The notes under the pieces: generated by a model
Database searches by the model: none
Told to the model about the DNA's origin: nothing
What the model saw: the letters and a program-made list of their open reading frames with translations, nothing else
Virus record (IMG/VR): IMGVR_UViG_3300034190_001539
Coordinates: 37,286 to 101,285 of that record
DNA: 64,000 bases
Direction: 5' to 3' (one strand)
From: a virus
Position numbers and translations under genes: made by a program
Shown: in pieces, positions 8,282 through 35,800 of the stretch
How the letters are laid out: every line of letters starts with the position of its first letter
Position numbering within the stretch: position 1 is the first letter of the stretch

Positions 8282-9904
8282 TTAAACTTGATCGATGTCG
8301 GTTACAACAACTTTTCCGTAGAATTCTGGACGAACCATCTTCTTAGCGTAACGAGTCATCACACCTTTACGTGGAGTAAAGTTTTGAGGATCGTATACTA
8401 ACGGAGTCATAATCATCGGTACATATGGAGCATATACAGCACCAGTTTCTAAGAAATTGCTTCCTCTGAAACCAATAAGTATAGAATTATCCAACATGTA
8501 AGGATTCTTATAAACAGTATATCTGTTATTGATTGAACCAACAGCTTCAACACCCATAGCATAAGTTTTACCTTCTGCATTACCAGTATTAGCAATATAT
8601 CCGCTAACTGATTCTAAGATTGTAGCAGTTTCAGGTGAAACAACAACAAAATTAGCACCACCACGAAGTGTTTTCTGATGGATAGCATTAGAAACAGATT
8701 GTATCTTAATACCTAATGTTTGAAACCATTGAGATTTCGTATAAGCATTAGAAGCACCACTTATTTGTGAAAAAGCAGGTGCACCTGTTCCAGAACCATC
8801 ATACTCATAGCCAACTTTAGCTGACCAGTATGCTGTCTTAGCAGAAGCATTAGCTTTTAACATATCAAGGATTTCTAAATCGATTTCCATTGCGATGTAC
8901 TCACTTAACATAGCAGTTAGTTCAGCTTCGGCATCAACAGAATGATAAGCATTAAGATCCTGAGCAAGCTCTGGTGTCCATACAGCTTTTAACTTTCTTG
9001 TTTTAGCAACGATAGCTTCACTTCTTAACTGAATGTCTACTTCTGGAATCTCAAGATCATCAGCAGATGATGGTCCAGGTGTAGTAAACGAGCTCTGTTC
9101 AAAATCACCACGTTGAGTAGCAATTGGAGCTTCGTGATACTTAACACCAAAAAGTTGTCCATCAGCAGGTGTAATCTTAGCAAAGAAACTAGCAGTAGTT
9201 ACATTATTGACATCATCAACTACACTATAAGCTGGATAAACAGCTGTTACTCCAGAACCACTAAGTTCCCAAGCACGTATGCCATTGTAGTCAGGTCTAG
9301 TAAATAAACCAGCACCAACTGATACTTTTAAAAGTGTTCCATCAGCAACAGAAGCACTTAAATCAGGCTCAAAGTCTACATCTTTCCATGTAGCAGAACC
9401 AGTAGTCATACCAAGTGGCGTAATACCTTCAGCTTTTTTATCGTTGATTGAATATCCAAATTTGCCTGCACCATACAAACCACCACTAGCATCGCCAGAA
9501 CCTGAAGTATTACCAAATACATCAGAATTTTGATCGATTTGTGAGGAAGCAGAACCATATTTGAAGTCCAAAAAGAAAATCAGACCTGATGGTAGATTCA
9601 TCGGTTGTACACTAACAAACTCTTGTGCTGACAATTCACCAAAGATTCTACGAACCAATGGTAATGCAACACCAGACCACTCTTCTCTATCACCACCAGT
9701 ACCTGTCGCTGAAGCTTCTTTAATAAGCTGCGTTGCCTGGTTTTCTAAAAGAACAGCCATTCCCTGTTTCTTAGTGGAGTCATCGATTTCATCTAACAAT
9801 CCGGTCGGTTCCCATTTGTCGACCAGTTTCCTAGTCTGTTTGAGAAGCTCTTTGTGTGGGTTGTGCCCAGTCATCAAAGAGTTTAGATTATCAAAGTTTG
9901 ACAT
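8282..9904 (-). CDS. 23: Major capsid protein gp23
   Basis: A 540-residue T4-type major capsid protein (T4 gp23 has 521). The signature stretch LPLVRRIFGELSAQEFVSVQ, then PMNLPSGLIFFLDF, is diagnostic of the family. A putative maturation site for the prohead protease is visible: QLIKE-ASATG at residues 59-68, cut after Glu63. This matches the T4 cut after Glu65 in an Ile-Ala-Glu context. The protein forms the hexamers of the prolate or icosahedral shell. GGGAGA precedes the ATG. The gene follows gp22 directly and ends in a strong terminator, as expected for the most highly expressed late gene. Confidence 0.96.
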   Translation of the reverse strand: MSNFDNLNSLMTGHNPHKELLKQTRKLVDKWEPTGLLDEIDDSTKKQGMAVLLENQATQLIKEASATGTGGDREEWSGVALPLVRRIFGELSAQEFVSVQPMNLPSGLIFFLDFKYGSASSQIDQNSDVFGNTSGSGDASGGLYGAGKFGYSINDKKAEGITPLGMTTGSATWKDVDFEPDLSASVADGTLLKVSVGAGLFTRPDYNGIRAWELSGSGVTAVYPAYSVVDDVNNVTTASFFAKITPADGQLFGVKYHEAPIATQRGDFEQSSFTTPGPSSADDLEIPEVDIQLRSEAIVAKTRKLKAVWTPELAQDLNAYHSVDAEAELTAMLSEYIAMEIDLEILDMLKANASAKTAYWSAKVGYEYDGSGTGAPAFSQISGASNAYTKSQWFQTLGIKIQSVSNAIHQKTLRGGANFVVVSPETATILESVSGYIANTGNAEGKTYAMGVEAVGSINNRYTVYKNPYMLDNSILIGFRGSNFLETGAVYAPYVPMIMTPLVYDPQNFTPRKGVMTRYAKKMVRPEFYGKVVVTDIDQV

Positions 9905-11995: not shown

Positions 11996-12253
11996 TTAAT
12001 TTTCTTTATTTTGAAATTTATCTTCTAAACCATCTTTACCATCAAAGTAATTGTACACACTCTGTAAGTAGTCCATAGACTTAGTTAGTTTGGATTGAAC
12101 CCAAGCCGGCATTTCAACTTCACCACCATTACCGACATTATCAACTATCTTATAAATCATTTTTGCATACTTCATAGAACGTTCTAATTGAGCTTTAGCC
12201 ATTTTACCTTCGTGGTCATCAGCTTCGTTTAATATATCCTTTAATTTTATCAT
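11996..12253 (-). CDS. Small head-associated protein with capsid-targeting-like leader, 85 aa
   Basis: An 85-residue protein of unknown function, starting MIKLKDILNEADD. This leader looks like the T4 capsid-targeting peptides that end in Leu/Ile-x-Glu and are cut by gp21; a cut after LNE at residue 9 is predicted. The rest is helical (AQLERSMKYAKMIYKIVDNV, SMDYLQSVYNYFDG). The ATG overlaps the stop of the upstream gene as ATGA, so it is translationally coupled. It lies three genes downstream of the prohead protease in the transcribed direction. It may be an internal protein or core component comparable in role to T4 gp67/gp68, but no homology to those is visible. Confidence 0.65.
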   Translation of the reverse strand: MIKLKDILNEADDHEGKMAKAQLERSMKYAKMIYKIVDNVGNGGEVEMPAWVQSKLTKSMDYLQSVYNYFDGKDGLEDKFQNKEN

Positions 12254-13401: not shown

Positions 13402-14004
13402 TTAGCCTCTCATTATATCGTTAATGACTGCTTCTACCTTACCATACTTTGTATTACGAACAGCAACGTTCTTATCAACACTCTCATTCATTGGATACAT
13501 AAAAGCACCATGTGTAGATGGATTAGATACGAAGTCAAATGCAATCAGTTCAAAGTCATCCTGCACTTCTTGAGCCCCACTCTCATTCACAGATTCAACC
13601 GAACCCATACCACGAGAACTAATACCCAATCTAATACCACTTTTAAATAATTCTTTTAGAATATTACCGCTCGGTGTTGGTAAAACCTCTACAGTTCCAA
13701 CTAAATCATCACCATTCCAATTCATTTCTGTAATATTATGTGATACGTTAGCTAAATTCACAACAGAAGATTCGGGATGGTCTAACTCACCCATAGCCCT
13801 TTTCTGTCCAATAAAATTTTCAAAATACTTTTTAGCTTCACGCATTAGTATTTCTTTTGGATACACCCTACCATTTTGGTTTTTAGTGTCTGCTCTTTGC
13901 AATACACCCTTAACAACTAACTTTCCGTTGTTCTCTTTCATAGCCTCGTTGATTTGGTCGGCTTGTATTTCAAATGGTAAATAATCTACTATTAATTGTT
14001 TCAT
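13402..14004 (-). CDS. 21: Prohead core protease gp21
   Basis: A 200-residue serine protease of the T4 gp21 (prohead protease) family. Catalytic His76 lies in GELDHPES, and Ser129/130 lie in GIRLGISSRGMGS. The N-terminal KGVLQRADTKNQNGRVYP is the family hallmark. The enzyme sits inside the prohead, digests the scaffold and trims gp23 and internal proteins after (Leu/Ile)-x-Glu. Its own ADQINEA at about residues 15-21 is a possible self-cleavage site. AGGAG precedes the ATG, which overlaps the upstream stop as ATGA. It is flanked by head-core genes and leads to S21, gp22 and gp23, the T4-like order with extra genes inserted. Confidence 0.95.
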   Translation of the reverse strand: MKQLIVDYLPFEIQADQINEAMKENNGKLVVKGVLQRADTKNQNGRVYPKEILMREAKKYFENFIGQKRAMGELDHPESSVVNLANVSHNITEMNWNGDDLVGTVEVLPTPSGNILKELFKSGIRLGISSRGMGSVESVNESGAQEVQDDFELIAFDFVSNPSTHGAFMYPMNESVDKNVAVRNTKYGKVEAVINDIMRG

Positions 14005-16305: not shown

Positions 16306-18111
16306 TTAATTTTTCTTAGTATTAAGGGAAGATACTTCATCTTTATATTCAGTTTCTAAGTCACTAGCCTCTGAAAGCAAAGTTTTTGCATCTTTACCCA
16401 AATGTTTGAATAGATTTTCATAGTGTTTTGTAGCAACTCCACCATAAGCCTTCTTCTTATCATGAGCCCCTAACGGATCTCTACCCCTCGCACCACTATC
16501 CTTACTATATTTATTAGCTTCTTTAGGTCTCCCAGCGCCTGGTTGTCCACCTTCTTCTGAACCACCATTATTATCCAACTCATGACCTGTTCTACCAGCC
16601 GCCATATCCGATGGAGTACCAGCAGATTCTCCGCTCTTAGCAGGATCGTTTCCTTCCATTTCAATTTGTGAGCGTCTAAATTTATTCTTATAGTCAAATA
16701 CTATTTGTTCATCATTTTCTTTAATCTGTTCTTCTGTAAAATTAAAGATGTTTTTGTAAATCCATTCGGAAGATACTAAACCATCTTGTAGCATAGAAGA
16801 TGCTAAAGATGTTTTGTTATTCCATAGCTCTACTTTTTCCTGTTCATATATTGTAGATGGATTTGTTAAACCTAAATCAAAGTTTACAAGCTCTTGGTCT
16901 CTAAATCCTTGAGCATATAGATGAACTACTGCAATCTTTGTTAATTCACTAACAATGATTCTTTGTATTCTTTCAATTGTTCTAGCAAAGCGAACATCTT
17001 CAGCAGCCAATGTAGCTTTAGAACCTAATCCTTCTTCATATCCTAAGAAAGCCTTTGGAACTCTTAAAGATGCTAACATTTTGTTTTTTAAATATTCAAT
17101 ATCCTCTGTTGCTTCATAGGTTAAACCTGGAAGTGCATCAATACTTGTTCCACTATCTCCACCTCTTACAGGTAAAAAGAAATCTTCTGTAAGGTTTTGG
17201 ATATTATAACGAAGATTATAGTCACCTGTTTTCTCATCAATAACAGGAGCTTTTTTCATTTTATTAACTACTTGTTGCATATAATTATCAACTTCTGCTG
17301 GTGGAATGTTTCCAATATCCAACTTAAATACTCTCTTTTCAGGAGCTCTCATAATCCTATGAATCAACATAGCATCTTCCATAAGAGTTAATTGTTTCCA
17401 CACCTTTCTACCACCCTCTAATTGTGACCTACCATAAGGTACATAGTTAGAATCTGATAGAAGTCTAAAGTGAGCTACCTCATAGTTCTCAAATGTTTTT
17501 GTATCCTGCTTTTTAGAACTATGTCTACTACTATCTCCTTGTGGTGTTAGCATAAACTGAACTAAAGATGGATTATCAGGATCGTGTCCTTCCATTCTAG
17601 CAACATCGTAAGCAGACATAGGTGTTACATTCGTAATACCATACTTTTCAGCTACCTCTAATTGTAAAAAGAAATCACCATACTTATTCATATTACGAAT
17701 CCAAGGCCATAGATTAAATTCTATGTTTATAATATCATAAAATAGATTGTGTAGTATATCATATATTTGATCATTATCTGTTTTAATATCCAATACTTTA
17801 CCATACTCATTTTTCATTGTTGATTCATCTGAGTAAATATCTAAAGCTGAAGCAATAATAGGATCAGAATCCATTGACTCATAATCTCTAAATAATCCTA
17901 ATCGTAATTGTTGTGCATACAATTGGTCGTTATATCCAATCTGTTGCATATTAGAATACAACTTAGTATATCTATCTACTAAATTTGTTTGAACATTTGA
18001 TTGTAATTGTCCTGTATCAACTATTTTTAATTTTCTTCCACCTATATTTCTAACGATAGTGTTTGTTGAAAACAATCGTTTTAGTCTTGAAAATAAATCT
18101 TGTTCTGCCAT
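16306..18111 (-). CDS. 20: Portal vertex protein gp20
   Basis: A 601-residue T4-family portal (T4 gp20 has 524). Hallmarks are SDPIIASALDIYSDESTMKN near residue 80-100, LWPWIRNMNKYGDFFLQLEV, YVPYGRSQLEGGRKVWKQLT and RVPKAFLGYEEGLGSKATLA. Twelve copies form the ring at the head vertex through which gp17 packages DNA; it also initiates core assembly. The C-terminal 100 residues are Gly/Lys-rich and flexible and include LLSEA near the end, a possible gp21 site. AAGAGG lies before the ATG, 10 bases after the terminase stop. No gp18 or gp19 lies between 17 and 20, unlike T4. Confidence 0.96.
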   Translation of the reverse strand: MAEQDLFSRLKRLFSTNTIVRNIGGRKLKIVDTGQLQSNVQTNLVDRYTKLYSNMQQIGYNDQLYAQQLRLGLFRDYESMDSDPIIASALDIYSDESTMKNEYGKVLDIKTDNDQIYDILHNLFYDIINIEFNLWPWIRNMNKYGDFFLQLEVAEKYGITNVTPMSAYDVARMEGHDPDNPSLVQFMLTPQGDSSRHSSKKQDTKTFENYEVAHFRLLSDSNYVPYGRSQLEGGRKVWKQLTLMEDAMLIHRIMRAPEKRVFKLDIGNIPPAEVDNYMQQVVNKMKKAPVIDEKTGDYNLRYNIQNLTEDFFLPVRGGDSGTSIDALPGLTYEATEDIEYLKNKMLASLRVPKAFLGYEEGLGSKATLAAEDVRFARTIERIQRIIVSELTKIAVVHLYAQGFRDQELVNFDLGLTNPSTIYEQEKVELWNNKTSLASSMLQDGLVSSEWIYKNIFNFTEEQIKENDEQIVFDYKNKFRRSQIEMEGNDPAKSGESAGTPSDMAAGRTGHELDNNGGSEEGGQPGAGRPKEANKYSKDSGARGRDPLGAHDKKKAYGGVATKHYENLFKHLGKDAKTLLSEASDLETEYKDEVSSLNTKKN

Positions 18112-18121
18112 AATTTGCCTC

Positions 18122-19699
18122 TTAGTTAATTAACCAATCTAACGATTCTTTTTCTCCATTGGGTCCTACTTCCATTTCCCAAGAATTATTTTGATTGGTT
18201 GGTGTTTGTGGCAACATCTGTGATGCTACTCCACTTAAAGTTCTCTTAGTTAATTCTATTCCCTCATTTTTGAGTCTTAATGCAGTATCTCTTACCCAAA
18301 GTGTAAGAGCAAAACTCATCACTAAATCATCGTTGTATCCTGTCATCGCTTCAGCTTTATTATTGTTATATATAAATACAAACAATTCATCAATTAATCT
18401 ATTTGAGCGAGCAATAACTGACTTTTCTCTGAAGTATTCTTCTAATTTAGCAATAACTAATGGTCGTGTTTTGGATGTCATACTAAATCCAGCTACCATA
18501 TTTCTATCTGCAATTCTATACTTATTAGTCATTTGATGTTCTGTATCTACATACTTTAAATCTTTACTTGTGTAAAATAAATTTTCATAACCCCTATCAA
18601 TACATTGTTGTAGTGTAGCCCAACCTATATTGTTGTTCTCTACTACCAACAAAGCATTATTATATTCTGTTGCTGTATTTACACATAAGTTTCCAAAATC
18701 TTTTGTTGATATTTTACCTTTATATTCTGCTACTTGTTCCATAGTTTCTATATCCATAACGTGAAATGCAGAATAATCAGAACCATCTCCTCTGCTGACA
18801 TCAGCACTTAGTACATAATCTTTAGTATAGTTTGCTGGTTGCCATACCCAAAGGTTACTATCTATCCCTCTCTTCTCTAATGGGTCTGTAACGTGTGTTT
18901 GTTTATACTCTTCTAAGATTACACCATCTATGACAGTCTGTCCTGAAGTTAAGAAGTCACAATCACATTCTTGAGCAGCTAAAGAAGGACCCAATAGTCT
19001 ATCTTGCTCTTTTCTCCATTCATCATTTCTTTCAGGATGTAAGTTCCAATGTAGTTTGATAAAGTTCCAATCGTTACTACCATCTTCTGCACCAACCCAA
19101 GTCTTATGAAACCAATTACCTATACCATTTGGTGTAGATAGTGCAATACATTGTCCACCAGTAGATAGTGTCTGTGAAGCAGCAGCCCATATCGGTTCAA
19201 TCTTATCAATGAAAGCAGCCTCATCTAATATCAAAAGAGACAAAGCCTCAGAACGACCACTATCCTCGCCGCTAGAAACAGCTTTTATCTGTGAACCATT
19301 ATTATATCGTAATGATAGTTTATTATCTTCTGTACATTTCTGTTTTAACCAACTTGGCAAATTAGCGTGCATTACCCTAACCTTTGTAACTAAGTTTTTA
19401 GCAGTATCTTGTTTGGTTGCAATCACTAATATATTTTTGTCTTGATGAAATGTCATCATCCAAAGGGAGTATCCGGCTGACAACGTAGACAAACCTAACT
19501 GACGAGCTTTTAGAATTACATTGAACCTATGTTCTTCAAATGTTTTAAGAGATTCTTCTTGAAACGGCCAAAGATGAAATGGAACTTTACCTTTAATTGG
19601 GTGCTGAACAACACAATACTTTTTTAAAAAGTATATAGGATCTTTAGCGCATTTCTTATATTCGCTTTTTATTACCTCTTTTAGTTGTCCTGGTTTCAT
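18122..19699 (-). CDS. 17: Terminase large subunit gp17
   Basis: A 525-residue packaging ATPase/nuclease. The Walker A variant KARQLGLST is at about residues 64-72 and Walker B LLILDE at 155-160. The C-terminal RNase-H-like nuclease has acidic residues Asp300 (LSADVSRGDGSDYS), Glu354 (LVVENNN) and Asp457/458 (GYNDDLVMS). It translocates DNA through gp20 and cuts concatemers. I chose ATG 19699 over an in-frame TTG at 19735 because AGGAAA sits 7-10 bases upstream and the upstream stop overlaps as TAATG. The gene is directly followed by gp20. Confidence 0.96.
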   Translation of the reverse strand: MKPGQLKEVIKSEYKKCAKDPIYFLKKYCVVQHPIKGKVPFHLWPFQEESLKTFEEHRFNVILKARQLGLSTLSAGYSLWMMTFHQDKNILVIATKQDTAKNLVTKVRVMHANLPSWLKQKCTEDNKLSLRYNNGSQIKAVSSGEDSGRSEALSLLILDEAAFIDKIEPIWAAASQTLSTGGQCIALSTPNGIGNWFHKTWVGAEDGSNDWNFIKLHWNLHPERNDEWRKEQDRLLGPSLAAQECDCDFLTSGQTVIDGVILEEYKQTHVTDPLEKRGIDSNLWVWQPANYTKDYVLSADVSRGDGSDYSAFHVMDIETMEQVAEYKGKISTKDFGNLCVNTATEYNNALLVVENNNIGWATLQQCIDRGYENLFYTSKDLKYVDTEHQMTNKYRIADRNMVAGFSMTSKTRPLVIAKLEEYFREKSVIARSNRLIDELFVFIYNNNKAEAMTGYNDDLVMSFALTLWVRDTALRLKNEGIELTKRTLSGVASQMLPQTPTNQNNSWEMEVGPNGEKESLDWLIN

Positions 19700-20085
19700 T
19701 ATATTTTTCCTAAGATAAATCCTATTCCTAACCAAAGATATTGATTCTCATACCATTTTGGTTTAATTACTTCTACTAATTCTTCATTAGTTTTATCACG
19801 AATTTTTAATAAATCAATTTGTTTTCTCTGAGCAAGCATTAATAAAGAATCTAATTTTATTTGTTCTTCTAATTGATTAATTACATCGTCACAATCAACA
19901 ATCGATTCTTTGTAGCCTTCTATCAATGAATCTGCTTTAGCTAATTTGCCTTCCCATTGTGCATCACGAGCTTTCAACATTTCTAATGCTTGTTCTTTTG
20001 TAAAAGAAGTTATTTCTTTTCCATCTTTTTGAATTGATTGTCCAAGTAAAGGAACTATTAATAATAGTGATAAAAAATATTTCAT
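19699..20085 (-). CDS. Small membrane protein with coiled coil, lysis candidate, 128 aa
   Basis: MKYFLSLLLIVPLLGQS is a signal peptide or N-terminal membrane anchor. A helical/coiled-coil middle follows (ALEMLKARDAQWEGKLAKAD, DVINQLEEQIKLDSLLMLAQ), then a C-terminal hydrophobic segment WYENQYLWLGIGFILGKI. There is no lipobox Cys. I chose ATG 20085, two bases after the upstream stop; an in-frame ATG at 20109 would add eight residues and overlap the previous gene. Neither has a clear Shine-Dalgarno, so reinitiation is likely. The layout suits an inner-membrane spanin or similar lysis accessory protein, but no endolysin is in the window. It could equally be a membrane-bound host-interaction factor. 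Confidence 0.6.
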   Translation of the reverse strand: MKYFLSLLLIVPLLGQSIQKDGKEITSFTKEQALEMLKARDAQWEGKLAKADSLIEGYKESIVDCDDVINQLEEQIKLDSLLMLAQRKQIDLLKIRDKTNEELVEVIKPKWYENQYLWLGIGFILGKI

Positions 20086-20391: not shown

Positions 20392-20700
20392 CTATTTCTT
20401 AGCAAAGTTTCTTAAAAAATCTTCAGCTGATTCGACTTCATCATTGTCATAAGCTTCCTGCATTTTTTGAGTTTTCTTTTTGCTATTAGTTAATTTACGT
20501 TTAAGGTTTCCTATCTCTTTTTTGGAAGATTTTTTGTTTTCCTCCATTACCTTTATTTCTTTTTCAACTTTTTTCTCTTCTTTTTTGTTTACTTTTATAA
20601 CTTCTTTTAACTTTTCTACTTCTTTACTTTTAACTGATTTAGCAGCAAAGAGTGCGCCAACTACGCCAAAAAATCCGAGTATTAATTTCCAAATTTTCAT
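20392..20700 (-). CDS. Membrane-anchored coiled-coil protein, 102 aa
   Basis: The N-terminal membrane segment MKIWKLILGFFGVVGALFAA is followed by a highly charged, Lys/Glu-rich coiled coil from about residue 25 to 85 (KLKEVIKVNKKEEKKVEKEI). This is the architecture of inner-membrane spanins and of some phage holin-linked proteins. GGAGAAACAATA lies before the ATG, whose first base is shared with the previous stop (TAATG). Together with the 128-residue gene at 19.7 kb it could be part of a lysis set. No outer-membrane lipoprotein partner is recognisable, so the spanin label stays tentative. Confidence 0.55.
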   Translation of the reverse strand: MKIWKLILGFFGVVGALFAAKSVKSKEVEKLKEVIKVNKKEEKKVEKEIKVMEENKKSSKKEIGNLKRKLTNSKKKTQKMQEAYDNDEVESAEDFLRNFAKK

Positions 20701-21227
20701 TATTGTTTCTCCAGTTCGTTTAAAGCCTTTGTGTATTCTTCTAAGGCTTCGTCAGCCATAGTGTTTATTTGTGTCATATCAATATTCCATTTTTCTTTTT
20801 CCAATTCAGGATGATTAACACCAACTTGATTATAAAATTCAGGAGCTTTTTGATTTCTAAACTCATTTATTTTTTCTATAGAATCTTTTAGAAATGATAT
20901 TTTATTCTTCCTAATTTTTTCTTCAGCCCATTCATCATATTTGCCAGCTATTCTCATTTTGTTTTCTATTTTTACTTGACAATCAAAACAATGTCCAAAT
21001 AGTCTCCACATTTTATCATCTAAATTTTGTTTCATAACAGAATCACAGTTAGGACAAAACCAAGGCATTCTAACACCCTGCATTAGTTCTGTCATTTTAG
21101 GAATAACATCGCCCTTTTCTTTCTCCTTACCTTTGTAACCAACCATTACTCTTTTATCAGGAGTTCTACCTTTCAGTAAATCACCTAATGCTTTATTCTG
21201 TCTTTCTGCTTCTTTGCTGTATCCCAT
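20700..21227 (-). CDS. Zinc-ribbon protein near terminase, 175 aa
   Basis: A Cys58-x2-Cys61 (CPNC) and Cys80-x2-Cys83 (CFDC) zinc ribbon sits between a basic N-terminus (RTPDKRVMVGYKGKEKEKGD) and a helical C-terminal half. The layout of DNA-binding ribbon plus helices, and location three genes before gp17, raise the possibility of a packaging recognition or regulatory protein in the place of the small terminase (gp16). I know of no assigned function for this type, and T4 gp16 itself has no zinc ribbon. GAGG lies before the ATG, two bases after the stop of the large multidomain gene. Confidence 0.6.
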   Translation of the reverse strand: MGYSKEAERQNKALGDLLKGRTPDKRVMVGYKGKEKEKGDVIPKMTELMQGVRMPWFCPNCDSVMKQNLDDKMWRLFGHCFDCQVKIENKMRIAGKYDEWAEEKIRKNKISFLKDSIEKINEFRNQKAPEFYNQVGVNHPELEKEKWNIDMTQINTMADEALEEYTKALNELEKQ

Positions 21228-21229
21228 AA

Positions 21230-24200
21230 TTACCTCGTAAACTTTAACATACCTAGTATTTGATTAACAGGTGCAAATGCTCCTGTATATTTGAAAACCT
21301 TTCCTTTAAACACAAAAGTAATACCCTCACTCGGTATAATCTTTTTAAAGCCACCCAAAGCATTTAATCTATCTAATTGAGTTTTTAACATTTCTAATTT
21401 AGAAGGATCTTTAGCTTTTTTTACCTGAGCTATTACTTTTATCAAATCTTTTTTTATTTTTTGTACAGCCTTATCAGGATTAGCTGCTATAAAATCTTTC
21501 ATATTACTTAGTACCTCAGCACCTAATTCAAAGAAAAGAACTTCCCAATCTCTTATGTGCTTTTTCTGTAGCTTGGCATGATCGTTTTTATCAGTAGACA
21601 ATACCCAATCTAAAAACTTAGGATAATCCTTTAAGTCTTTTTTAATCTGTGGAATCTTATATGATTTATCAAAGAAAGCCCACCTCTTCAAAAGACCAGC
21701 CATAACATTATTTGTTACATTAGGATTGTCTGTTTGTTTTCCACCATTAAATATATACTCATACCAATATGCCTGATGATAATCTGATAATGTGTCTGTA
21801 TCTTTTAAATCAAATTCTTTTTTTAATTTGTTTAACTTACCTAAAAAGTAACTTTGTCTGGCAGAAAAGTCTTTTACCTTTGGTAGATTAGCAACAAATG
21901 GTTGTGTAATCTTAAATGCTTTTTGTACATTTTGATTAACTTGCTTTATCATACCAGCCAAAACTCTTGCACTTCCTCTATCTTCCCCTTGCGGAGAACC
22001 TGCGGAATCATATTCTATTGTTCCGTGAAACTGTAATAATGCTTTATCATATGGTATAACATTTACTGTCTTTGGATATATGACTTCTAAAGACATAAAC
22101 TTTTTACCTTCATCAAATATTTTATCCTTTTGCGCTTTACTTAATTTACTAACCGCTATCTGTAAATCTCTTATAGCATAAACAAAGGCTTTTTCAATAT
22201 CACCTCTACCCGCAAACATATTTTTAATACCATTAATATCTAATGCGTTAGCACCAAAATTTTTAATATGTCCTTTGTTACGAGCTGCGATAAGTTTATT
22301 ATTTTTCCAACTTACCATTATATTCTGTCCATCTGTTTTTTCAGTAACAGCGCCTTCACTACTAAGATTACCTTGTAATGTATTAATAATTAGTGTTTTA
22401 AAATCTGAAAATGTAAGATTTTTATCGTCAAATGGATGACTTAAATGACCATAAGCTCCGCCCATAAGCAGTAACTCCTTTTCTTTGTTTCTTTGTCTTA
22501 GTTTATTTTTACTATTTATTTGTTCTTTTAAATCTATTTCATCACCCTCATATGAATCACCATCAGCACCAGCTGCAAATAGAGTACCAATAATATTATC
22601 AATTGCTGCTGTACTTCCCATCCAATTTACTACTTCCCAACCTAATGGTTTTACTACCTGTTCCATCCAATTTTTGTACTTAGTAACTGCCATAGTAGAA
22701 CCATTTGCTTGTCCATGATCTAAATAAGTTAGTGGTACAGATCTATATTGATCTGTTATTGAATTTTTTGCATCGGAACTCAAAACATAATCTAAAACTT
22801 TCCAACCGGCATCTTTGTAAATTGAATCCAACCATTCTTTAGAAGTCTTTTTGTATGTTTCATAATCTGTATAAAATGTGGAAGGACCATCATCTAAGTT
22901 TCCAGCAGGTGTGGATGATGATTCTAATAAAAATTCTTCAATTAATTCATCCGTCAATATGTATGATTCAAATAACTTTTTGAAATTATTCGTCATCATA
23001 GTATACACAGCTTTATCATAATATCCAAATGATTTTTTAAATAGTTTTTCTCTGGCGCCATCATCAATTTTAGGATCACCTAATAACTTTCTCATCTGTG
23101 TTCCACTTATATTACCTGATTTTGGTGCTTGAACAAAATATCCGTGTTCTTCAAAACCCTTTATATCATTCTTATTTTTTTTATAATCTTGATAGTATGA
23201 TTTACTACCATCTTTCTTTTTACCACCTTTTAAACGACCAGCATCTTTTTCACCAAAAGCAAAAACAACTGCTGTATTATTACTATTAAATTTTTTCAAT
23301 AAATTATTTGGAACATATGGCGACTTTTCTTTAATGATACGATTTTTTGGAATACCCATTTTAATCATATGTGAAGCTTTTTCTTTAAAGTTCATCGGAT
23401 GCCGTGGTGGTTGTTTTATATCAGAAGTTGTTATATAAACATCATCAAAGTTTGATTTCATCCACTTATATGTAGCTAAATGTCCACTATGAAATGGTTG
23501 AAATCTTCCACCAAATACACCGATTAGTTTTTTATCTTTGTTTTCGTTCAAATTAGATGCACTATCCCCATTATCAACTATAGAATATACAACATTTTCC
23601 ATATACAAGTCAAGACTTTCTTTTATATTTTTTGCTTTTTTATAACCACTACCATATGGAACTGAAGTATTACCTTTCTTCTTCATTTTCTTAACCATCT
23701 TACGGCTTGGTGATGGTAATGTTCCTGCTGGTGCTCCAAATTCTTCATTCTTCTTTTTGGTTTTCTTTTTCATCTTATTTATGTAAGCTCTATAGACAGC
23801 TGCTTCCGAACTCTTGCCCATCTCTTTAGCTCTCTGTTCCATAGCTACAGCAGCTTGTATCTTATGTGCGTGTTTTTTACCACTTCCACTTATCTTACTA
23901 ACTGATGCTTTAGCATCTTTGACTGTAGCAAACTTTAATCCTTTAATTGTTCCTTTTGGATTCTCATCCGTATATAAATCTGAATGAGACTTTGAACCAC
24001 GATGTTGTCCTTTCTTACGAGGAACTCTTGGTTCTTCAGATACATTTTTTAAATAATCTTTATCTTTGGCCATTCTAAATTTTACAACTGGCTTTCCATT
24101 TATTGTTGGCATTCCGTGTTTGTCTTTTCCGATATTTTTAACAAATACCTTTTTGTTTTTAAATCTACCCACTTTAATTGTATCACCAACATTTACATCT

Positions 24201-25018
24201 ATCTTTATAGCCTCAAAGAAACGAGATTGGCCTGGATCTTTAAATACTTTTTGAAATTTCTTTTCTTTTCTTAACCAAGCTTTTGCTATTTTACTTTTTG
24301 GTTTTAATTTCATAAATTTATTTATACCCTTATCAACTAACATCTTAAATTTACTTTGTGCTTGTTTAGGGCTAAGAAATTTATTATTACCAACTACCAT
24401 AAAATTACTCATACCAAACAAACCTTGAAAAAATGCTAAATTGTTTTGAACATCTTGCCAACTTTGACGAACAATCTTTTCAGGAACAACCCTTGCCCTT
24501 TCTTCATTTCTCTGTAAAGCAACTTCTAAAGAGGTATTGACAAAAACCATAAAACAATCGTAACCCAATGCTTCTAATTTCTGTTTCTTTTCTTTTACAG
24601 AACCATATTTGTGTCCAGTTCCATCTATGATTACACCCAATCTACCATTGGTATATAATCTCAATCTTTCTTTACTTAAAGATTTAGCAAATTTTCTTAA
24701 ACCGCTTGTATCATAATCTACAGGATCGCCATTTCTATCTACACCTGTCAAATCAGCAAACAATTCATCTGGCATAATGTCTAAGTCTGTAGTACCATAA
24801 TATTTTTTTAATAACATTTCCAATTCAGAATCTTGATTTACCATCTTCAAACCTGTTTTAGAAACATTTATCTTTTCAGGTATACCGAATAATTGAGAAG
24901 CTACATATGATTTACCACTTCCAGGCCCTCCAGCTAAAAAGATAGCTTTAAATATGCCAGGATCCCTAGCTCCTTCGTTTAGAAATGGTTTTGTTAAAAA
25001 TTCTGTAAGTTTATCCAT
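21230..25018 (-). CDS. Kinase / NMNAT-like / RNA-ligase-like multidomain protein, 1262 aa
   Basis: Domains in order. Residues 1-15 are a short leader ending LNE-G. About 24-230 is a P-loop kinase (GGPGSGKS, 30-37) resembling polynucleotide-kinase/zeta-toxin folds. About 230-480 is basic linker and a small domain (GTIKGLKFATVKDAKASV). About 497-660 is an NMNAT/cytidylyltransferase-like fold with GRFQPFHSGH (His510, His513) and ISGTQMR (about 636-642). About 700-880 is of unknown fold. About 885-1262 has covalent-nucleotidyltransferase motifs: EKTDGQN (Lys894), MSLEVIYP (about 977), and EGITFVF then KVFKYTG near the end. Kinase plus ligase recalls T4 RNA repair; NMNAT recalls phage NAD+ salvage. 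LNE and LLE sites lie between domains. AGGAAA lies before the ATG. Activities are inferred from motifs only. Confidence 0.72.
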   Translation of the reverse strand: MDKLTEFLTKPFLNEGARDPGIFKAIFLAGGPGSGKSYVASQLFGIPEKINVSKTGLKMVNQDSELEMLLKKYYGTTDLDIMPDELFADLTGVDRNGDPVDYDTSGLRKFAKSLSKERLRLYTNGRLGVIIDGTGHKYGSVKEKKQKLEALGYDCFMVFVNTSLEVALQRNEERARVVPEKIVRQSWQDVQNNLAFFQGLFGMSNFMVVGNNKFLSPKQAQSKFKMLVDKGINKFMKLKPKSKIAKAWLRKEKKFQKVFKDPGQSRFFEAIKIDVNVGDTIKVGRFKNKKVFVKNIGKDKHGMPTINGKPVVKFRMAKDKDYLKNVSEEPRVPRKKGQHRGSKSHSDLYTDENPKGTIKGLKFATVKDAKASVSKISGSGKKHAHKIQAAVAMEQRAKEMGKSSEAAVYRAYINKMKKKTKKKNEEFGAPAGTLPSPSRKMVKKMKKKGNTSVPYGSGYKKAKNIKESLDLYMENVVYSIVDNGDSASNLNENKDKKLIGVFGGRFQPFHSGHLATYKWMKSNFDDVYITTSDIKQPPRHPMNFKEKASHMIKMGIPKNRIIKEKSPYVPNNLLKKFNSNNTAVVFAFGEKDAGRLKGGKKKDGSKSYYQDYKKNKNDIKGFEEHGYFVQAPKSGNISGTQMRKLLGDPKIDDGAREKLFKKSFGYYDKAVYTMMTNNFKKLFESYILTDELIEEFLLESSSTPAGNLDDGPSTFYTDYETYKKTSKEWLDSIYKDAGWKVLDYVLSSDAKNSITDQYRSVPLTYLDHGQANGSTMAVTKYKNWMEQVVKPLGWEVVNWMGSTAAIDNIIGTLFAAGADGDSYEGDEIDLKEQINSKNKLRQRNKEKELLLMGGAYGHLSHPFDDKNLTFSDFKTLIINTLQGNLSSEGAVTEKTDGQNIMVSWKNNKLIAARNKGHIKNFGANALDINGIKNMFAGRGDIEKAFVYAIRDLQIAVSKLSKAQKDKIFDEGKKFMSLEVIYPKTVNVIPYDKALLQFHGTIEYDSAGSPQGEDRGSARVLAGMIKQVNQNVQKAFKITQPFVANLPKVKDFSARQSYFLGKLNKLKKEFDLKDTDTLSDYHQAYWYEYIFNGGKQTDNPNVTNNVMAGLLKRWAFFDKSYKIPQIKKDLKDYPKFLDWVLSTDKNDHAKLQKKHIRDWEVLFFELGAEVLSNMKDFIAANPDKAVQKIKKDLIKVIAQVKKAKDPSKLEMLKTQLDRLNALGGFKKIIPSEGITFVFKGKVFKYTGAFAPVNQILGMLKFTR

Positions 25019-26883: not shown

Positions 26884-29800
26884 TTATGTTGTGATATTAC
26901 CTGGTACTGGTGCTTTTGAAGGATCGAATTGAGTAGAGCCACCAGCCGGTGGTGCTATAGTACCACCAGCATTGAATGAAAATTTACCTACCGAAGTTAC
27001 TGTAGTGTGTACTTCATTTCCATATCCTCTAATTGATACGCCTGGTTCTATTTTTATTCCACGCTTTGCATTATTAGAATTTGAATCAATACTACCTGAT
27101 GCTATAGAAAATGTTGCAATATTACCACCAGTTGCTGTAACAGCACCTGACATTGATACATTACCACTAGCATCCACATTAAAATTATCTGTTACGACAA
27201 CTATTTTTCCACTTACGGATTGAATATATCCTGCGTTAGTACCACCATTTTTGATTAAAACATCCCCATCAGCATCTACAAAGAATCCTTTTTCTGTACT
27301 TGCCGTATCTGTAACACTATCTACTGTTCCTAATTTAAGTGATGTCTGTGTAAGCTTAAAGTTTGTTGAACCTAATGAAAAAACTTCAGATTTAATATTA
27401 AGTACTGGATTTGCGTCTGAAGCAAAGATTATTGCATTATCACCGGAATCATCACTTATTTCAAATTTAGGAATGTCATCGTCTATACCAAGAACAAAAC
27501 CAATTTGGTCATTATCAAATGCATTAAAAGGATCATCAAAATGTGCACCACCAGCTATGAAACTATCAGTACCACCCGCTATCTTTACCTTATTACCTAA
27601 AGACATTGAAGCTTGTGTTGCAGATATTCCAATACCAGAAGCTACGCTTGTTGATTCTATTGAGCCAGACTTTATCGTAAATCCACCTATTGTACCTTCT
27701 ACAGCATTTACTTTTCTAACTATCACATCTCCATCAGTTTTTATGTGAAATTTAGATGAACTTACTTCAAAACCAGTACCAGTATCAAATTTTAAAAAGG
27801 CAGTAGAACTACCTACTCTAAATACACTTCTACTTCCATCGTCTCTTGTACCAAGTATTATAGGTATAGAAGTATTTGATTCTAACGCTACACCACCGCC
27901 TACATTATTACCTATGAGTATACCAAGAGCGTCATCACCATCTATTTGTAGATTACCAGAATTAGCATCTATTCTTATTCTTTCTGTAGATGATTGATTA
28001 AAATTTATATTAGAATCACCGATTGACCAACCACCTACTTTTAATACATTACTTTCATACTTAAAATTACTTCCAATAGACATTCTGTTGCCAGGTCCAT
28101 CAATAAAAGTTCTATTACTTTGACCAAAGTTATGTGTACCAGTTCCTAATGAAAGAACACCACTACCACTTAATATTGCATTTGGTACATTTGAAGTTTG
28201 TTTTGAAGATGATATAACCCCACCACCAATAGTCCAACCACCAGCAGTTAATGTATCGTCTACATAAGAAAATGTCGAACCTACATAAAATACAGGTTTA
28301 GTAGAAGCACTAACGAAGAACAATCCATCGGTTGGTGTACCAGTTGCTGTTGTAGCACCAGTTCCGAGTGCGATTGAAGCGTTATTACCATTTATATCCG
28401 CTACAGTTCCACTACTTAATCTACCAGGTATTAATTCCCAACCAGCTAATTTAGCTTTATTTGCTGTTATTAATACCGAAGCACTATCTTGACTTCCCGA
28501 TACTTGACCTGTTCCACTAAATACTGCAAATCCATATGGTGAATCTACTGTTCCGTCATTTAGTGGTAATTTTCCTAATACTAATTTTGGTTCTCCATAA
28601 TCTATACTACCAGTCCAAATTGTTAGGGATTGACTAAAAGCACTAAGAGCCACACTACCACCAGCATTGTCACTCTTTATTGTTCCTGGCATCAAATCCC
28701 AACCAGCAATCATATTTTGACCTTGACCAAGTTCTGCTATTAGATTTCCATCAGCAGTTCCACCACCATTAAATATTTTTAATCCATAAACACTACCACC
28801 ATCAACTTCACCTAAGTATATTCTATCATTACTTCCATCGTTAATTGTAATTCTTTTTGCAGCTGCACTTATTGTTATTATATCAGATGGACTTGTTATA
28901 GCTGCTGTTGATATTGTCCATCCAGCGATTGTATTTCCACCCTCACCTAATTCTACAAGTATATCACTATCGGCTGTACCAGTTCCATCAAATATTTTTA
29001 GTCCATAAACAGTACCATCATCAACCTCACCCAAATGAATCATCTCAGTACCATTGGTTTTAGAGATAGTAATTCTCTCAGTAGCAGCGTCTATATTTAT
29101 TGTATTGCCAGAACTACTTATAGCAGTTGCTCCTATTCCCCAACCACCGATATTACCTGTTTTAGCATTTATAGCACCCTCTAAGTAAACAGAACCTGAT
29201 GCCCATAATCCAAAATTACTATTATCTCCAGAATCTCCGTCTTTATCTAAACTACCAAATCTAGGAGAAGTTATTCCAGCTAAATTACCAAGCCTCACTA
29301 CAGCAGAACCACTATTTGAGTTTACATCTATAAAAGGGCTATTAGGTGAAGAAGCATCAATAGCTACTGTACCACCATTTATTCTGGCAGCCGTTGAACC
29401 AACATTTATATTATCTAAATCTCCTATTACATTGTCCACATTGTATGTATCAAAATCTCCACTTGTAGTTTTACTTCCAGCTATTTGAAATTGTACAGCA
29501 TTTATATTTCCAGCATCATTCGCATCTTTGAAAAGTAAAATATCATTGTCGCTGAATGTAGCAGATTTAGTATTATCAAATGTAACAGTACCACCACTTT
29601 GAGAAGAGCCTGATACGACACCACTATCTGATACGAATAAAATACCATTAGTTGCTTTGACAATATCTTTTTGGAATATATGTGTTCTTAAAGTATTTCT
29701 TACTACTATATTATCTACCTCTAACAATGTTCCATTGGAAGCATTATCTTGTATTCTAAATCCATCACCAGTTATACCTGATATAAAAGTTGAAGTTCCT

Positions 29801-32800
29801 AAAGTTTTTGTGTCAGCAAATGTAACATCACCAGTTACGGCTAATGTACTTCCATCAAAAGTAAGATTAGCTTCAGCGTTCATAGCGTCTGTACCAGTAG
29901 CAGTTACAACCCTATTGTTTGAACCATTTGCCATAAAGTCTGAGACATCTACTGAAATTGCATCTGCGGCAACATCAATTCCTGTTCCAGCACCTACTGC
30001 GAGAGTTCTATTAGCTGCTATAGTTCCACCGCCTGTTAAACCATCGCCTGATATAACCGATACTGCTGAGTGGTCAATGTGTTCATTAGCAACAAATCCA
30101 CTTAAATTATCGTGTACGATTTCACTATCTGTAGTTGTTATTTCATTAGCGTTAGCAGTTATACCTGTTCCGCCAACTACATTTATTGTTCTATTTGCAG
30201 CTATTGTTCCACCGCCGGTTAATCCGGCACCTGCTATAACACTTACTGAACTATGGTCTATATGTTCATTTGATACAAATCCACTTAAATTATCGTGAAC
30301 GATCTCACCATCTGTGGTTGTTATTTCATTAGCGCCGACAGTTATACCTGTTCCACCTATAACATTTAAAACTGAGTTGGTGGCAGTCATACCAGCTCCA
30401 GCTAATAAGGTTGCTACATCAGCAAATGCTTCTTTTTTAAGAGTACCAGTTGCCCCACCATCTAAAAATAATACATAATCCCCATTTGCTAAAGTTTCTT
30501 CACCAGCCTCAGACAAATCAACATCTATCTGATTTGCTTGGACATCTACAAAATTACCAGCTATAGCATTTACTGTAATCGAACCACCTAATGTTACAGT
30601 ACCCCCACCAGTCAAACCTGTTCCAGCAGTTACTGTCACAGCATCTTCTGCTAATCGACTAATTGGTATTTCATCATTATCAATTTCAGCAACTATTGCT
30701 GCGGCTAATTCATCTGATATACCACTAGCTTCAAGCCTACCAAACGAACCTGTTGAGGTTGATGAACCACTTATTGCATGTCCAGTTCCCACGAACTCAA
30801 TTCCTGTTCCTGTGCTATCATTTCTGATTTTTAATGCTGTTGTACCAGTAGCACTTGCATGGTCATTTACTATTTCAACCAGATTCCTTGTACCTGTGTC
30901 TGAACTATTTGAACCAAAATACGCTATTCTTCCAGTTGTTAAACTATCTGCTCCATCTACCATTAAAACAGAACCACCAGTATTAGCTGGAGTTGGAATA
31001 TAAATAGTTGAGTTTGAAGTTGCTTCTGAATCTATGTAAAGTGCAGCATTATTACCATCCTGATCTATTTCCAATCCATACTGACCTTGATCCTGTTCAA
31101 TTTTTATTCCAGATTCTGCTCCAGTTGCATTATGGACAACCAATGTTGCTTCAGCTGAAGCCAACGATGCCCCAATTCCTGCTCTTTTTGTAGCGTTTAC
31201 CATACCAAACGAACCGGTTGAAGCAGCTGAACCACTTATTATATTACCTGTTAAATTTAAAAGTTCTGTATTATTTACATCGAAGTGTATTTCGTTTGCT
31301 GTTTCAAAATCTATTTTAGTTTGAGCATCTTCACCAATAACTAAATCAGTTTTATAGATAGATTCAATAGTTGTTTGAGCTGCTGTGATAGCAATATCAT
31401 TTGCGTTTGCAGTAATTCCATCCCCACCAATTACATTTATTGTTCGATTAGCTGCTATTGTTCCACCACCAGTCAATCCAGTACCAGCTACAACTGATAC
31501 AGATGAATGGTCTATATGTTCATTAGCAACAAATCCACTTAGATTGTCATGAACTATTTCTGAATCGTTTGTTGTTATGTCATTTGCGTTTGCCGTAATA
31601 CCAGTTCCACCAACTACATTGATAGTTCTGTTAGCTGCGATTGTTCCACCGCCAGTTAATCCGGCACCTGCTATAACACTTACTGAACTATGGTCTATGT
31701 GCTCGTTTGCAACAAATCCACTTAAATTATCGTGAACAATCGCTGAATCATCAGTTGTAACCTCATTAGCTCCTACACTAATACCAGTTCCACCTATAAC
31801 ATTTAAAACCGAATTAGTAGCCGTCATACCAGCTCCAGCTAATAGTGTAGCTACATCAGCAAATGCTTCCTTTTTCAAAGTACCAGTAGCACCACCATCT
31901 AAGAAAAGAACATAATCACCATTTGCTAAGGTTTCTTCGCCAGCTTCTGATAAATCTACATCTATCTGATTTGCTTGAACATCTACAAAATTTCCAGCTA
32001 TAGCATTGACTGTGATTGAGCCACCTAATGTTACAGTACCCCCACCAGTCAAACCTGTTCCAGCAGTAACAGTAACTGCATCCTCTGCTAACTTAGCTAT
32101 TGGGATTTCGTCATCATCTATTTCAGCAACTATCGCTGCGGCTAATCCATCTGATATACCACTAGCTTCAATTCTACCAAATGAGCCTGTAGAAGCAGCT
32201 GAACCGCTTACTATATCGCCTGTTAAGTTTAATAATTCTTTATTGTTTACATCAAAATGTATTTCGTTTGCTGTTTCAAAATCTATCTTAGTTTGGGAAT
32301 CTTCTCCAATTACTAAGTCTGCTTTGTATATAGACTCTATTGTAGTCTGAGCTGCTGTAATAGCAATATCGTTGGCATTTGCAGTTATACCATCTCCACC
32401 AACGACATTAATAGTTCTTGTTGAGGCTATTGTTCCACCGCCTGTTAAACCATCACCAGCAGTTATAGAAACTCCACTGTGGTCTATGTGTTCGTTTGCT
32501 ACAAAACCACTTAAATTATCGTGTACGATTTCTGAATCATTAGTTGTTATATCATTTGAATTTGCAGTAATACCTGTACCACCAACTACATTTATTGTTC
32601 TATTTGCAGCTATTGTACCGCCACCTGTTAAACCAGCACCTGCTGTGATTGAAACAGATGAATGGTCTATGTGTTCGTTTGCTACGAATCCACTTAAATC
32701 ATCGTGAACTATTTCTGAATCGTTTGTTGCTATATCGTTTGCGTTTGCCGTAATACCAGTTCCACCAACTACATTAAAAGTTCTATCACTAGCTAATGTA

Positions 32801-35800
32801 CCACCGCCTGTTAAACCAGCTCCAGCAGTTAATGTCCTACCTTGTAATGTATCTACATTACCTTCTTCGGTTGTTACTCTAGTAGCTAATGATGATGAAA
32901 CAGCAGTGAACGAACCACTAATATTTGAGGCTAATGTCGAATCTGAAAAGTCTACTGCTAAATTTTCTGAACCTTCATCTTTAAGTCCAGTCCCTGCAAA
33001 GTCACTAACATCTACTCCTATATTTTCTGAACCAAGGTCTTGTAAACCATCTCCTACAAAATCACTTACATCTACATTTAATGTTACTGAACCACCTAAT
33101 GTTACAGAACCACCAGTTTTTAAACCATCACCAGCAGTTATTGTTACAGCATCCTCTGCTAGTTTTGCTATCGGAATTTCATCATCATCAATTTCTGCTA
33201 CAATCGCTGCGGCTAATCCATCCGATATACCGCTAGCTTCTATTCTTCCAAATGAACCAGTCGAAGCAGCTGAGCCACTTACTATGTCGCCAGTTAAATT
33301 TAATAATTCTTTATTGTTTACATCGAAGTGTATTTCGTTTGCTGTTTCAAAATCTATTTTAGTTTGAGCATCTTCACCTATAACCAAATCAGCTTTATAA
33401 ATGGATTCAATAGTTGTCTGAGCTGCTGTGATAGCAATATCATTTGCGTTTGCAGTAATTCCATCCCCACCCACAACGTTAATAGTTCTGTTAGCCGCTA
33501 TAGTACCGCCACCTGTTAAACCAGCACCTGCTGTGACTGATACACTACTATGGTCTATATGCTCATTTGCTACGAACCCACTTAAATCATCGTGTACTAT
33601 TTCAGAATCGTTTGTTGCTATGTCATTTGCGTTTGCAGTAATACCAGTTCCGCCAACCACATTAAAAGTTCTATCGGAAGCTAATGTTCCACCGCCAGTT
33701 AAACCTGCACCAGCAGTCAATGTTCTACCTTGTAATGTGTCTACATTACCTTCTTCGGTTGTGACTCTACTAGCTAATGAGGATGATAAAGCAGTAGAAG
33801 AACCAGTGACATTTGAGGCTAATGTGGAATCCGAAAAATCGACATTGAAAGTTCTACTAGCTGCTATAGTACCACCACCACTTAAACCAGTACCAGCAGT
33901 CAATGTTACTCCACTATGGTCTATGTGTTCGTTTGCTACGAAGCCACTTAAATTATCGTGTACAATCTCACTATCTGTGGTTGTAATCTCATTAGCATTA
34001 GCAGTTATTCCAGTCCCACCAACAACGTTTAGTGTGACTGCGCCAGTATCACCACCACCTGTTAAACCATCACCAGCAGTTACACTCGTAATGTCTCCCT
34101 CACTAACTTGAAGTCTAGATGAAATAGAAGCTGAAAAGTCTGTTAGGTTGGTTGATGCTCCACCAAATCCAGCAACATTAACTGCGCCAAATGAACCTGT
34201 AGAAGCAGCTGAACCACTTATTATATCACCAGTTAAGTTAAGAAGTTCTGTGTTGTTTACATCAAAGTGTATTTCGTTTGCTGTTTCAAAGTCTATCTGA
34301 GTTTGAGAATCTTCACCAATTACTAAGTCTGCTTTATAAATTGATTCAATAGTTGTTTGAGCTGCTGTAATGGCTATATCATTGGCATTAGCCGTAATTC
34401 CATCACCACCAACTACATTTATTGTTCTATTTGCAGCTATAGTTCCACCACCAGTCAATCCAGCACCAGCCGTAACTGATACAGATGAGTGATCGATATG
34501 CTCATTAGCAACGAACCCACTTAAATTATCGTGTACGATTTCAGAATCGTTTGTAGCAATATCATTTGCATTTGCTGTAATACCAGTTCCGCCAACTACG
34601 TTAAAAGTTCTATCAGAAGCTAATGTTCCACCGCCTGTTAAACCAGCACCAGCAGTTAAAGTTAATGATTGAAAAGAACCACTAATATCATCACCAGCAT
34701 CAGAACCAAATGATGAATTCCAAACACCATTGGATATTGTTGTACCATCTATTGCACTATTTATTGTACTTCCTGCTATGATATGTACGTGATTTCCTTT
34801 AGCAAACTCTCCAACATTTCCATCACTAGCAGTAGTTCCTATCGCTTCGGGATCGGCTGTGTAAGCCTGTAAGGCTGGAGCACCTAATGTTCCAGCAACT
34901 TGACTATCGTTTGTAAAACTTTCTCTGTTTATAGCAGTTCCAAAATTAGCTACTCCACTACCACCTCTAATCTCAATACCAGCTCCAGTCATTTTAATAA
35001 AACTATCTTCTGAGTTGTATATTAATAAACCTTGTGGTGTTAATTCTACTTTTCTCGTATTACTACGAACAGAAAAATTATCGAATGTTATTTCAGTTTC
35101 AGGATTCTCTGCGGTTGTACTTCCAACTACTGTTTTGGTAAATGTTTTCTTACCTAAACCTGTATTTACAGTTCCCTTATTACCTGCAAAAAGTGGTTTT
35201 TCTACAGTAAAACCAGTATCATCATTAATACTTCCTGTTAATACAAGCTTTATATAAACGGCAGCTTCTGGTAATTCAGCCGAAGCACCAAAACTATTGT
35301 ATTGTCCACTTCCTAAAAAGTATTCACCATAACCATTTGAAGCAGTATATTCATTTTCAGGTAAAAATGGAATCCAACCATTACCGCCTGAAGCACTATA
35401 TTCTGCTCTAAAATATTGTGGGCCTAATGCCCTATCTTTTCCAATTTTATTAAATGATGAACTAAATCTAGCAACCGAACTAAAACTTATAGTATCACCA
35501 GCTGCAAAAGATTCTGTCATAATGTTTTCTAATAGGTACTGATTACTTCCTGTATAATTAACTGCTCCGCTTGGTACAACAATGTCTAAAGTATTGTCTC
35601 CACTTACTGCTTGATCGTCACCTGAATAACCACTCCTATCGGTTAATGAAACAAAAACAGCATCGGTTGTAGAGAAAGACCAACTGGTAATATTAGAACC
35701 AGACCTTACATTTCTACCAGCTGCTATTGTTTGATCTTCAAAACTTTTATTTCCTATATATTGTTGTCCACCACCTATTGTTTGAAATGAACCTGATTTT

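Follow-up and report, generated by a model that had tools for sequence, protein, structure and literature searches.

We analysed a 64,000-nucleotide stretch of viral DNA (the window; positions 37,286 to 101,285 of IMG/VR record IMGVR_UViG_3300034190_001539, a fragment of 101,285 bp) and concentrated on one long open reading frame (ORF) that lies next to the head genes. Its product combines a P-loop kinase (KIN), an NMNAT-like nucleotidyltransferase (NAT) and an RNA-ligase-like nucleotidyltransferase (LIG) with the further modules KOW, M3, L4 and X, and begins with a short leader that resembles the capsid-targeting sequences (CTS) of phage T4 (Table 1). From this arrangement we lean towards reading the protein as an RNA-repair polyprotein that would be packaged into the head, cut by the prohead protease and injected together with the DNA.

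Table 1. Modules and candidate cleavage sites of the long ORF, and neighbouring genes, in window coordinates (a slash marks a candidate cut; HMM, hidden Markov model; pLDDT, predicted local distance difference test)
Feature	Position	Strand	Residues	Remarks
Whole ORF	21230..25018	-		1262 aa, ATG start, uninterrupted; stop codon 21230-21232
Leader MDKLTEFLTKPFLNE/G	24974..25018	-	1-15	resembles T4 capsid-targeting sequences
KIN, P-loop kinase, PNK/zeta-toxin type	24245..24961	-	20-258	separate gene in some relatives
KOW (our own label), small module	24071..24220	-	267-316	own HMM; often repeated or moved in relatives; no Pfam name
M3, Lys-rich module	23747..24043	-	326-424	73-77% identical to cyanophage hypothetical proteins (tblastn: P-TIM68, S-SM2, Bellamy); no matching Pfam family
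L4, short basic linker module	23621..23746	-	425-466	HMM census
Candidate site IKE467/S	23618..23626	-		end of L4
Candidate site LNE492/N	23543..23551	-		just ahead of NAT
NAT, NMNAT/HIGH-superfamily nucleotidyltransferase	22937..23536	-	495-694	CTP_transf_like, profile, model, Foldseek
Candidate site LLE699/S	22922..22930	-		between NAT and X
Module X	22511..22921	-	700-836	conserved DDGPxTFY start (alignment); model pLDDT low
Candidate site LKE832/Q	22523..22531	-		between X and LIG
LIG, RNA-ligase-like nucleotidyltransferase	21233..22486	-	845-1262	K894, E978, E1231, K1243; helical insert ~1051-1226
175-aa gene	20700..21227	-		directly after LIG in relatives (257 loci, median gap 12 bp); no PHROG match
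Terminase large subunit	18122..19735	-		phrog_2, E 1.7e-50
Portal protein	16306..18111	-		phrog_213, E 1e-68
Head maturation (prohead) protease	13402..14004	-		phrog_207, E 6e-55; presumed processing enzyme
Small head-cluster gene	11996..12253	-		10-residue leader MIKLKDILNE/A
Major head protein	8282..9904	-		phrog_138; carries IKE63/A

An initial annotation of this DNA had placed kinase, NMNAT-like and RNA-ligase-like domains in a single polypeptide. Indeed, the ORF is intact and the motifs lie where they had been claimed. A chimeric assembly was considered and rejected: the full-length ORF recurs on five other contigs, at 100% on two and at 86% on three, and is therefore no local assembly accident. 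Relatives are frequent in aquatic viral contigs, where 260 were found by the whole protein and at least 567 by the ligase domain.

Leader and candidate prohead-protease sites

The T4 capsid-targeting sequences, read from NC_000866, are MKTYQEFIAE/A in IPII and IPIII and MELITELFDE in Alt. In IPIII, targeting depends on residues 4 and 7 and processing on residues 8 and 10; ten N-terminal residues are sufficient (PMC9026906). The leader of the window protein has hydrophobic residues at positions 4 and 7 (L4, F7), continues with L8 and ends in a glutamate site, LNE15/G. A similar N-terminus, M-[ND]-K-L-T-[EK]-[FWY]-L-..-[LI]-x-E, is usual in the family and precedes KIN, KOW, M3 or NAT alike. A regular expression for this leader, which was composed after the family had been seen and is descriptive rather than an independent test, fits 90 of 110 family ORFs and 6.7% of shuffled N-termini.

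The T4 protease gp21 cleaves on the C-terminal side of glutamate in [LI]xE-type sites. In the window protein, such tripeptides end at the module boundaries at residues 15, 467, 492, 684-699 and 832; further ones are LTE6 in the leader and two inside modules (46-48, 562-564). Compared with shuffles, the linkers between modules of the 110 family ORFs hold 2.08 times as many [LI]xE tripeptides (1.65 times when the first 30 residues are left out) and 2.8 times as many [LI]xE[GASN] motifs; the observed/expected ratio is 0.90 inside modules and 0.98 for the control [LI]xD. These ratios come from related sequences and the counts are not independent. The site in the major head protein of the window, IKE63/A, stands where T4 gp23 has LTE65/A.

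The neighbourhood of the gene is constant. The homologue of the window's terminase lies on the same strand and downstream in all 267 loci that have it, at a median of 1.2 kb from the ligase stop, and it is present in 67 of the 69 loci with at least 8 kb of downstream sequence. Portal (205 loci) and then prohead protease (105 loci) come after it in that order. Taken together, the leader, the inter-module protease sites and the place beside terminase, portal and protease suggest a delivery route for the protein. T4 IPI-III and Alt, which are injected, likewise start with a short leader that is hydrophobic at positions 4 and 7 and finishes in an [LI]xE-type sequence, and their genes are set near head and packaging genes. 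Their cargo is one small basic protein or one ADP-ribosyltransferase, whereas here several enzymes would travel in one chain of 1262 aa that has candidate cleavage sites along its length.

The same enzyme folds would be expected if the protein were an ordinary late or cytoplasmic enzyme that is not packaged, in which activities like those of T4 Pnkp and Rnl1 are fused so as to coordinate their expression, and whose gene merely lies among structural genes. We consider this unlikely, since proteins with differing first modules have the T4-like leader in common, [LI]xE is enriched specifically in linkers, the head-gene neighbourhood is invariant, and late expression would come too late against early RNases.

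Capsid-targeting-like leaders were also seen on other genes in the relatives' loci. A NUDIX hydrolase gene (L259:81-512, PF00293, 2e-19) lies upstream of a kinase-less L4-NAT-LIG gene, and similar ORFs occur in L139, L147, L223 and L233. The leaders of these NUDIX genes are MIKLKDLLNE or MSIPKLKDLLKE, and from this sequence the hydrolase is possibly a further head cargo. The ORF L175:11264-12322 has such a leader and matches ThsB_TIR weakly (E 0.005), short of the cut-off.

Predicted enzyme modules

The ligase motifs of LIG are KTDG with Lys894, LEVIYP near residue 977, EGITFVF at 1231-1237 and KVFKYTG at 1240-1246. Motifs I, III, IV and V are invariant among the 212 LIG relatives aligned, with K894, D896, G897, R913, E978, Y990, E1231, G1232 and K1243 identical in all 212 sequences. 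A Pfam search gave no significant family for the C-terminal third of the window protein; RNA_ligase (PF09414) matched weakly in 5 of 26 relatives (best E 0.034, short of the cut-off). A sequence-only search with the ligase profile against PDB returned coiled-coil, eS6 and fusion-glycoprotein noise and was dropped for a fold search. The AlphaFold model of residues 840-1262, run with 38 relatives, reached a pLDDT of 88.5 and a predicted template modelling score of 0.83. Nearly all of its top ~27 Foldseek matches in PDB were RNA or DNA ligases, headed by a Palaeococcus/archaeal RNA ligase, T4 Rnl1, T4 Rnl2 and the Naegleria ligase. Against a viral library, members of the same family came first, followed by phage RNA ligases (RM378, 3.9e-4). 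The ligase fold that the initial annotation expected around Lys894 was thus recovered, and conservation and modelled fold together support that LIG carries a ligase fold and its catalytic residues.

Rnl1 has an all-helical domain C-terminal to motif V. In the model of LIG no such domain follows: the chain stops ~19 residues past motif V, and the helices come after the motif III region and ahead of motif IV, so that an insert before motif IV stands against the helical domain after motif V of the T4 ligase.

KIN has a P-loop (GGPGSGKS, residues 30-37), the catalytic aspartate and the lid arginines of its class. K36 is present in all 55 ungapped rows; D63 is kept in all 60 and R170/R174/R176 in 58 of 60. 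Pfam AAA_33 and Zeta_toxin match residues 26-202 (E 6e-9 and 8e-9, above the curated cut-offs) and phrog_505 PNK matches at 7e-6. The best solved matches of the KIN profile are the C. thermocellum Pnkp kinase (1.7e-3; the PDB entries are deposited as 'Metallophosphoesterase', which we take to be Clostridium thermocellum Pnkp) and L-seryl-tRNA(Sec) kinase (PSTK, 2.4e-3). A phosphatase family as in T4 Pnkp was not found in the window protein by the Pfam search.

For NAT, Pfam CTP_transf_like matches residues 501-643 (E 2e-8, above the curated cut-off). The protein carries GxFxPxHxGH (503-513, with HSGH at 510-513) and ISGTQMR (637-643), and the model of residues 490-690 is a confident NMNAT fold (pLDDT mostly >90, Foldseek probability 1.00), in agreement with the Rossmann-type fold that had been expected around His510. 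Archaeal NMNATs are the closest solved relatives in the profile search (6e-6). Together with the canonical HSGH and ISGTQMR, these matches would suit a protein that restores NAD+ when immune systems such as Thoeris and SIR2 deplete it, RNA repair being secondary. Three findings disfavour NAD+ salvage by NAT. According to a published survey, every NadM-bearing phage also has NadV (PMC9503650), whereas no NAPRTase family (Nampt/NadV) was found in the records of 12 relatives, which are mostly incomplete and include the complete genome of Microcystis phage Mel-JY01. In addition, the first His of HxGH is Gly in 59 of 138 relatives, and the NCBIfam NMNAT models score 24.6 bits against a cut-off of 127, so that neither equivalog nor subfamily cut-offs are reached. 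We therefore regard NAD+ reconstitution as quite improbable, and the dedicated NAD+ branch proposed in the initial annotation finds no support here.

A chemical couple between the two modules, in which LIG takes AMP from NAD+ with release of nicotinamide mononucleotide and NAT remakes NAD+ from this product and ATP, would account for their pairing as the conserved core of marine relatives, with a diverged HIGH nucleotidyltransferase in the place of NAT in freshwater ones. We give this idea hardly any credence, since LIG resembles ATP-dependent RNA ligases in fold and not the NAD+-dependent DNA ligases, and a LigA-type Ia domain was not recognised. NAT is best described as a predicted nucleotidyl transferase and a nearly constant partner of LIG. 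Residues 700-836 (X), part of the region at ~700-880 that had been noted as lacking an assigned fold, gave a model of low confidence.

Family architecture and CCA-adding modules

The architecture census, made with our own HMMs, covered 112 distinct complete ORFs. A first HMM for the HD region (HDx) was dropped from it because it matched many Lys-rich linkers. The order KIN-KOW-M3-L4-NAT-X-LIG of the window protein is the commonest architecture (23 of 112 ORFs). In other relatives the kinase is absent or encoded by a neighbouring gene, and in a few the order is permuted, as in X-NAT-KOW-LIG (L159) or with LIG ahead of NAT (L161, by BLAST and HMM). The Mel-JY01 homologue (WWT39297.1, 639 aa) consists of NAT and LIG alone. 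Freshwater relatives keep a HIGH nucleotidyltransferase in front of the same ligase, in a diverged form (GGFKPPHxGHL...ISASxLR); NAT and LIG are therefore the stable core of the family, and the kinase can be missing and frequently has a gene of its own. Of the fixed three-domain enzyme that had been proposed at first, the pairing of NAT and LIG stands, whereas the constancy of the kinase does not.

Several relatives carry a CCA-adding tRNA nucleotidyltransferase in the same chain, in complete ORFs (L033, L036, L158, L190, L195, L258) and in truncated ones (L031, L037, L055, L207), with an HD domain alongside it in L033 and L036. This module matches Pfam PolyA_pol at 1e-29, a tRNA CCA-adding enzyme as its best PDB match at 2.4e-32, and CCA tRNA nucleotidyltransferase as its best NCBIfam match at 5e-52, below the full-length cut-off. 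The uptake of a ligase, a PNK-like kinase and a CCA enzyme into one family is, at the level of sequence, a strong pointer to tRNA or RNA repair. The end-healing and sealing theme of the initial annotation is strengthened by these relatives.

The mosaic architecture and the late-gene context also suit the theme of polyvalent proteins (Iyer et al., 2017, PMC5512222). Together with the Pfam Zeta_toxin match (8e-9) and the protease-like domains added in some relatives, they would fit an effector that attacks the host, with a zeta-toxin-like kinase acting on nucleotide sugars or proteins and nucleotidyltransferases modifying host molecules. Such an effector seems improbable to us: among solved structures, the kinase comes closest to RNA kinases (Pnkp, PSTK), ligase and CCA-adding activities serve repair, and no variation was seen in ligase motifs I, III, IV and V. 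In line with polyvalent proteins, the family combines disparate enzymes per chain, shuffles its architecture and lies among virion genes. It differs in its repair-type cargo (ligase, CCA enzyme), and for the 2H domains of polyvalent proteins no ligase association is reported (PMC5512222). Polyvalent proteins further have an in-chain peptidase, whereas we propose an external prohead protease; no peptidase domain was found in the window protein with Pfam. Insertions in two relatives recall the in-chain peptidases of polyvalent proteins, namely Zn_protease (6e-8) at L133:2647-3813 and Ntn-type AAT (6e-6) at L075:8145-9164.

Two uncultured-phage proteins in UniProt/BFVD, A0A6J5MCV5 and A0A6J5MBE6, belong to the same family, with TM-scores of 0.91-0.93 for the ligase domain. 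Their name, 'Cytidyltransferase-like domain-containing protein', covers the NAT half, and no annotation of the ligase half was found for them. Flavobacterium phage immuto gp088 (L289:13122-15845, 907 aa, annotated as NadR) is likewise an NMNAT-like multidomain protein upstream of terminase. It differs in having no LIG match and in carrying a Pol-beta-like motif and two HExxH motifs instead, that is, other cargo in the same genomic slot.

Proposed delivery and repair route

In the packaged-polyprotein reading, the N-terminal peptide would direct the chain into the prohead, in the way in which IPI-III and Alt are targeted by the T4 CTS. The prohead protease would then cut behind the [LI]xE tripeptides of leader and linkers, as the distribution of the sites suggests, and would release NAT, X, LIG and pieces that contain the kinase within the capsid. 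These pieces would be ejected with the DNA and could act before any phage gene is expressed. Judged from folds and catalytic residues, KIN may phosphorylate 5'-OH RNA ends, and LIG may adenylylate itself on Lys894, move the AMP to the 5'-phosphate and seal the break. NAT would perform a nucleotidyl transfer, and in some relatives CCA modules, joined by HD in two or more fusions, would rebuild tRNA 3' ends. The purpose would be to reverse the cleavage of tRNA or RNA by host immune RNases when infection starts.

Several points weigh against the packaged reading, among them the limits on the leader fit and on the linker ratios given above. The leader expression also fits 269 of 1424 other ORFs (19%) in the same loci; several of these are capsid-cluster genes, and terminase and protease, which are no known cargo, are among them. 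In PDB, LIG reaches weak Foldseek E-values (6e-3 at best, with a TM of ~0.22), probably because ~175 helical residues are inserted before motif IV. LIG is split across two ORFs in L230:2429-3661, L249:2350-3582 and L064:8001-11656, which we interpret as broken genes or sequencing errors. With its nearest solved relatives at E ~2e-3, KIN may be a Pnkp or another small-molecule or RNA kinase, and the window protein itself contains no recognised 3'-phosphatase or CCA domain. Its presence in the virion and its processed N-terminus are predictions from sequence. No tRNA genes, and so no supporting tRNA cluster, were found in the 101-kb record, itself a fragment.

The repair enzymes of T4, Pnkp and Rnl1, are made after infection starts, and many tRNA-cutting defences act early. 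The window protein shares with this pair predicted activities of the 5'-kinase and ligase type, the RNA-ligase fold and ligase motifs I, III, IV and V. It differs in joining its modules in one polypeptide with a capsid-targeting-like leader and an NMNAT-fold partner, and the phosphatase domain of Pnkp was not recognised in it. More tentatively, we propose that a packaged and proteolytically released kit might restore defence-cut tRNAs before phage gene expression, including tRNAs cut by CCA-tail cutters such as Cas12a3. This kit would comprise a 5'-kinase, a ligase, a nucleotidyltransferase and, in some members of this widespread group of aquatic phages, a CCA-adding enzyme. RNA repair by phages is known, as are T4 internal proteins and polyvalent proteins, each by itself; the window protein would combine these kinds. 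In the open-access literature we found no paper on a virion-packaged RNA ligase or tRNA-repair protein, nor on a polyprotein that contains a ligase together with a CTS-like leader and protease sites. If true, a virion-delivered repair kit would be a new counter-defence route and would yield a prediction to test across hundreds of uncultured aquatic phages, and it would give a likely function to a large family so far labelled 'cytidyltransferase-like' only.

Other genes of the record were noted in passing. Upstream of the tail-fibre gene lies an ORF of 4103 aa (window positions 26884-39195). In the rest of the record, N-terminal sequences inspected by eye point to a possible ThyX (L285:4118-4816) and to two carbamoyltransferase-like genes of the NodU type (L286:4860-6473 and 8388-9677).

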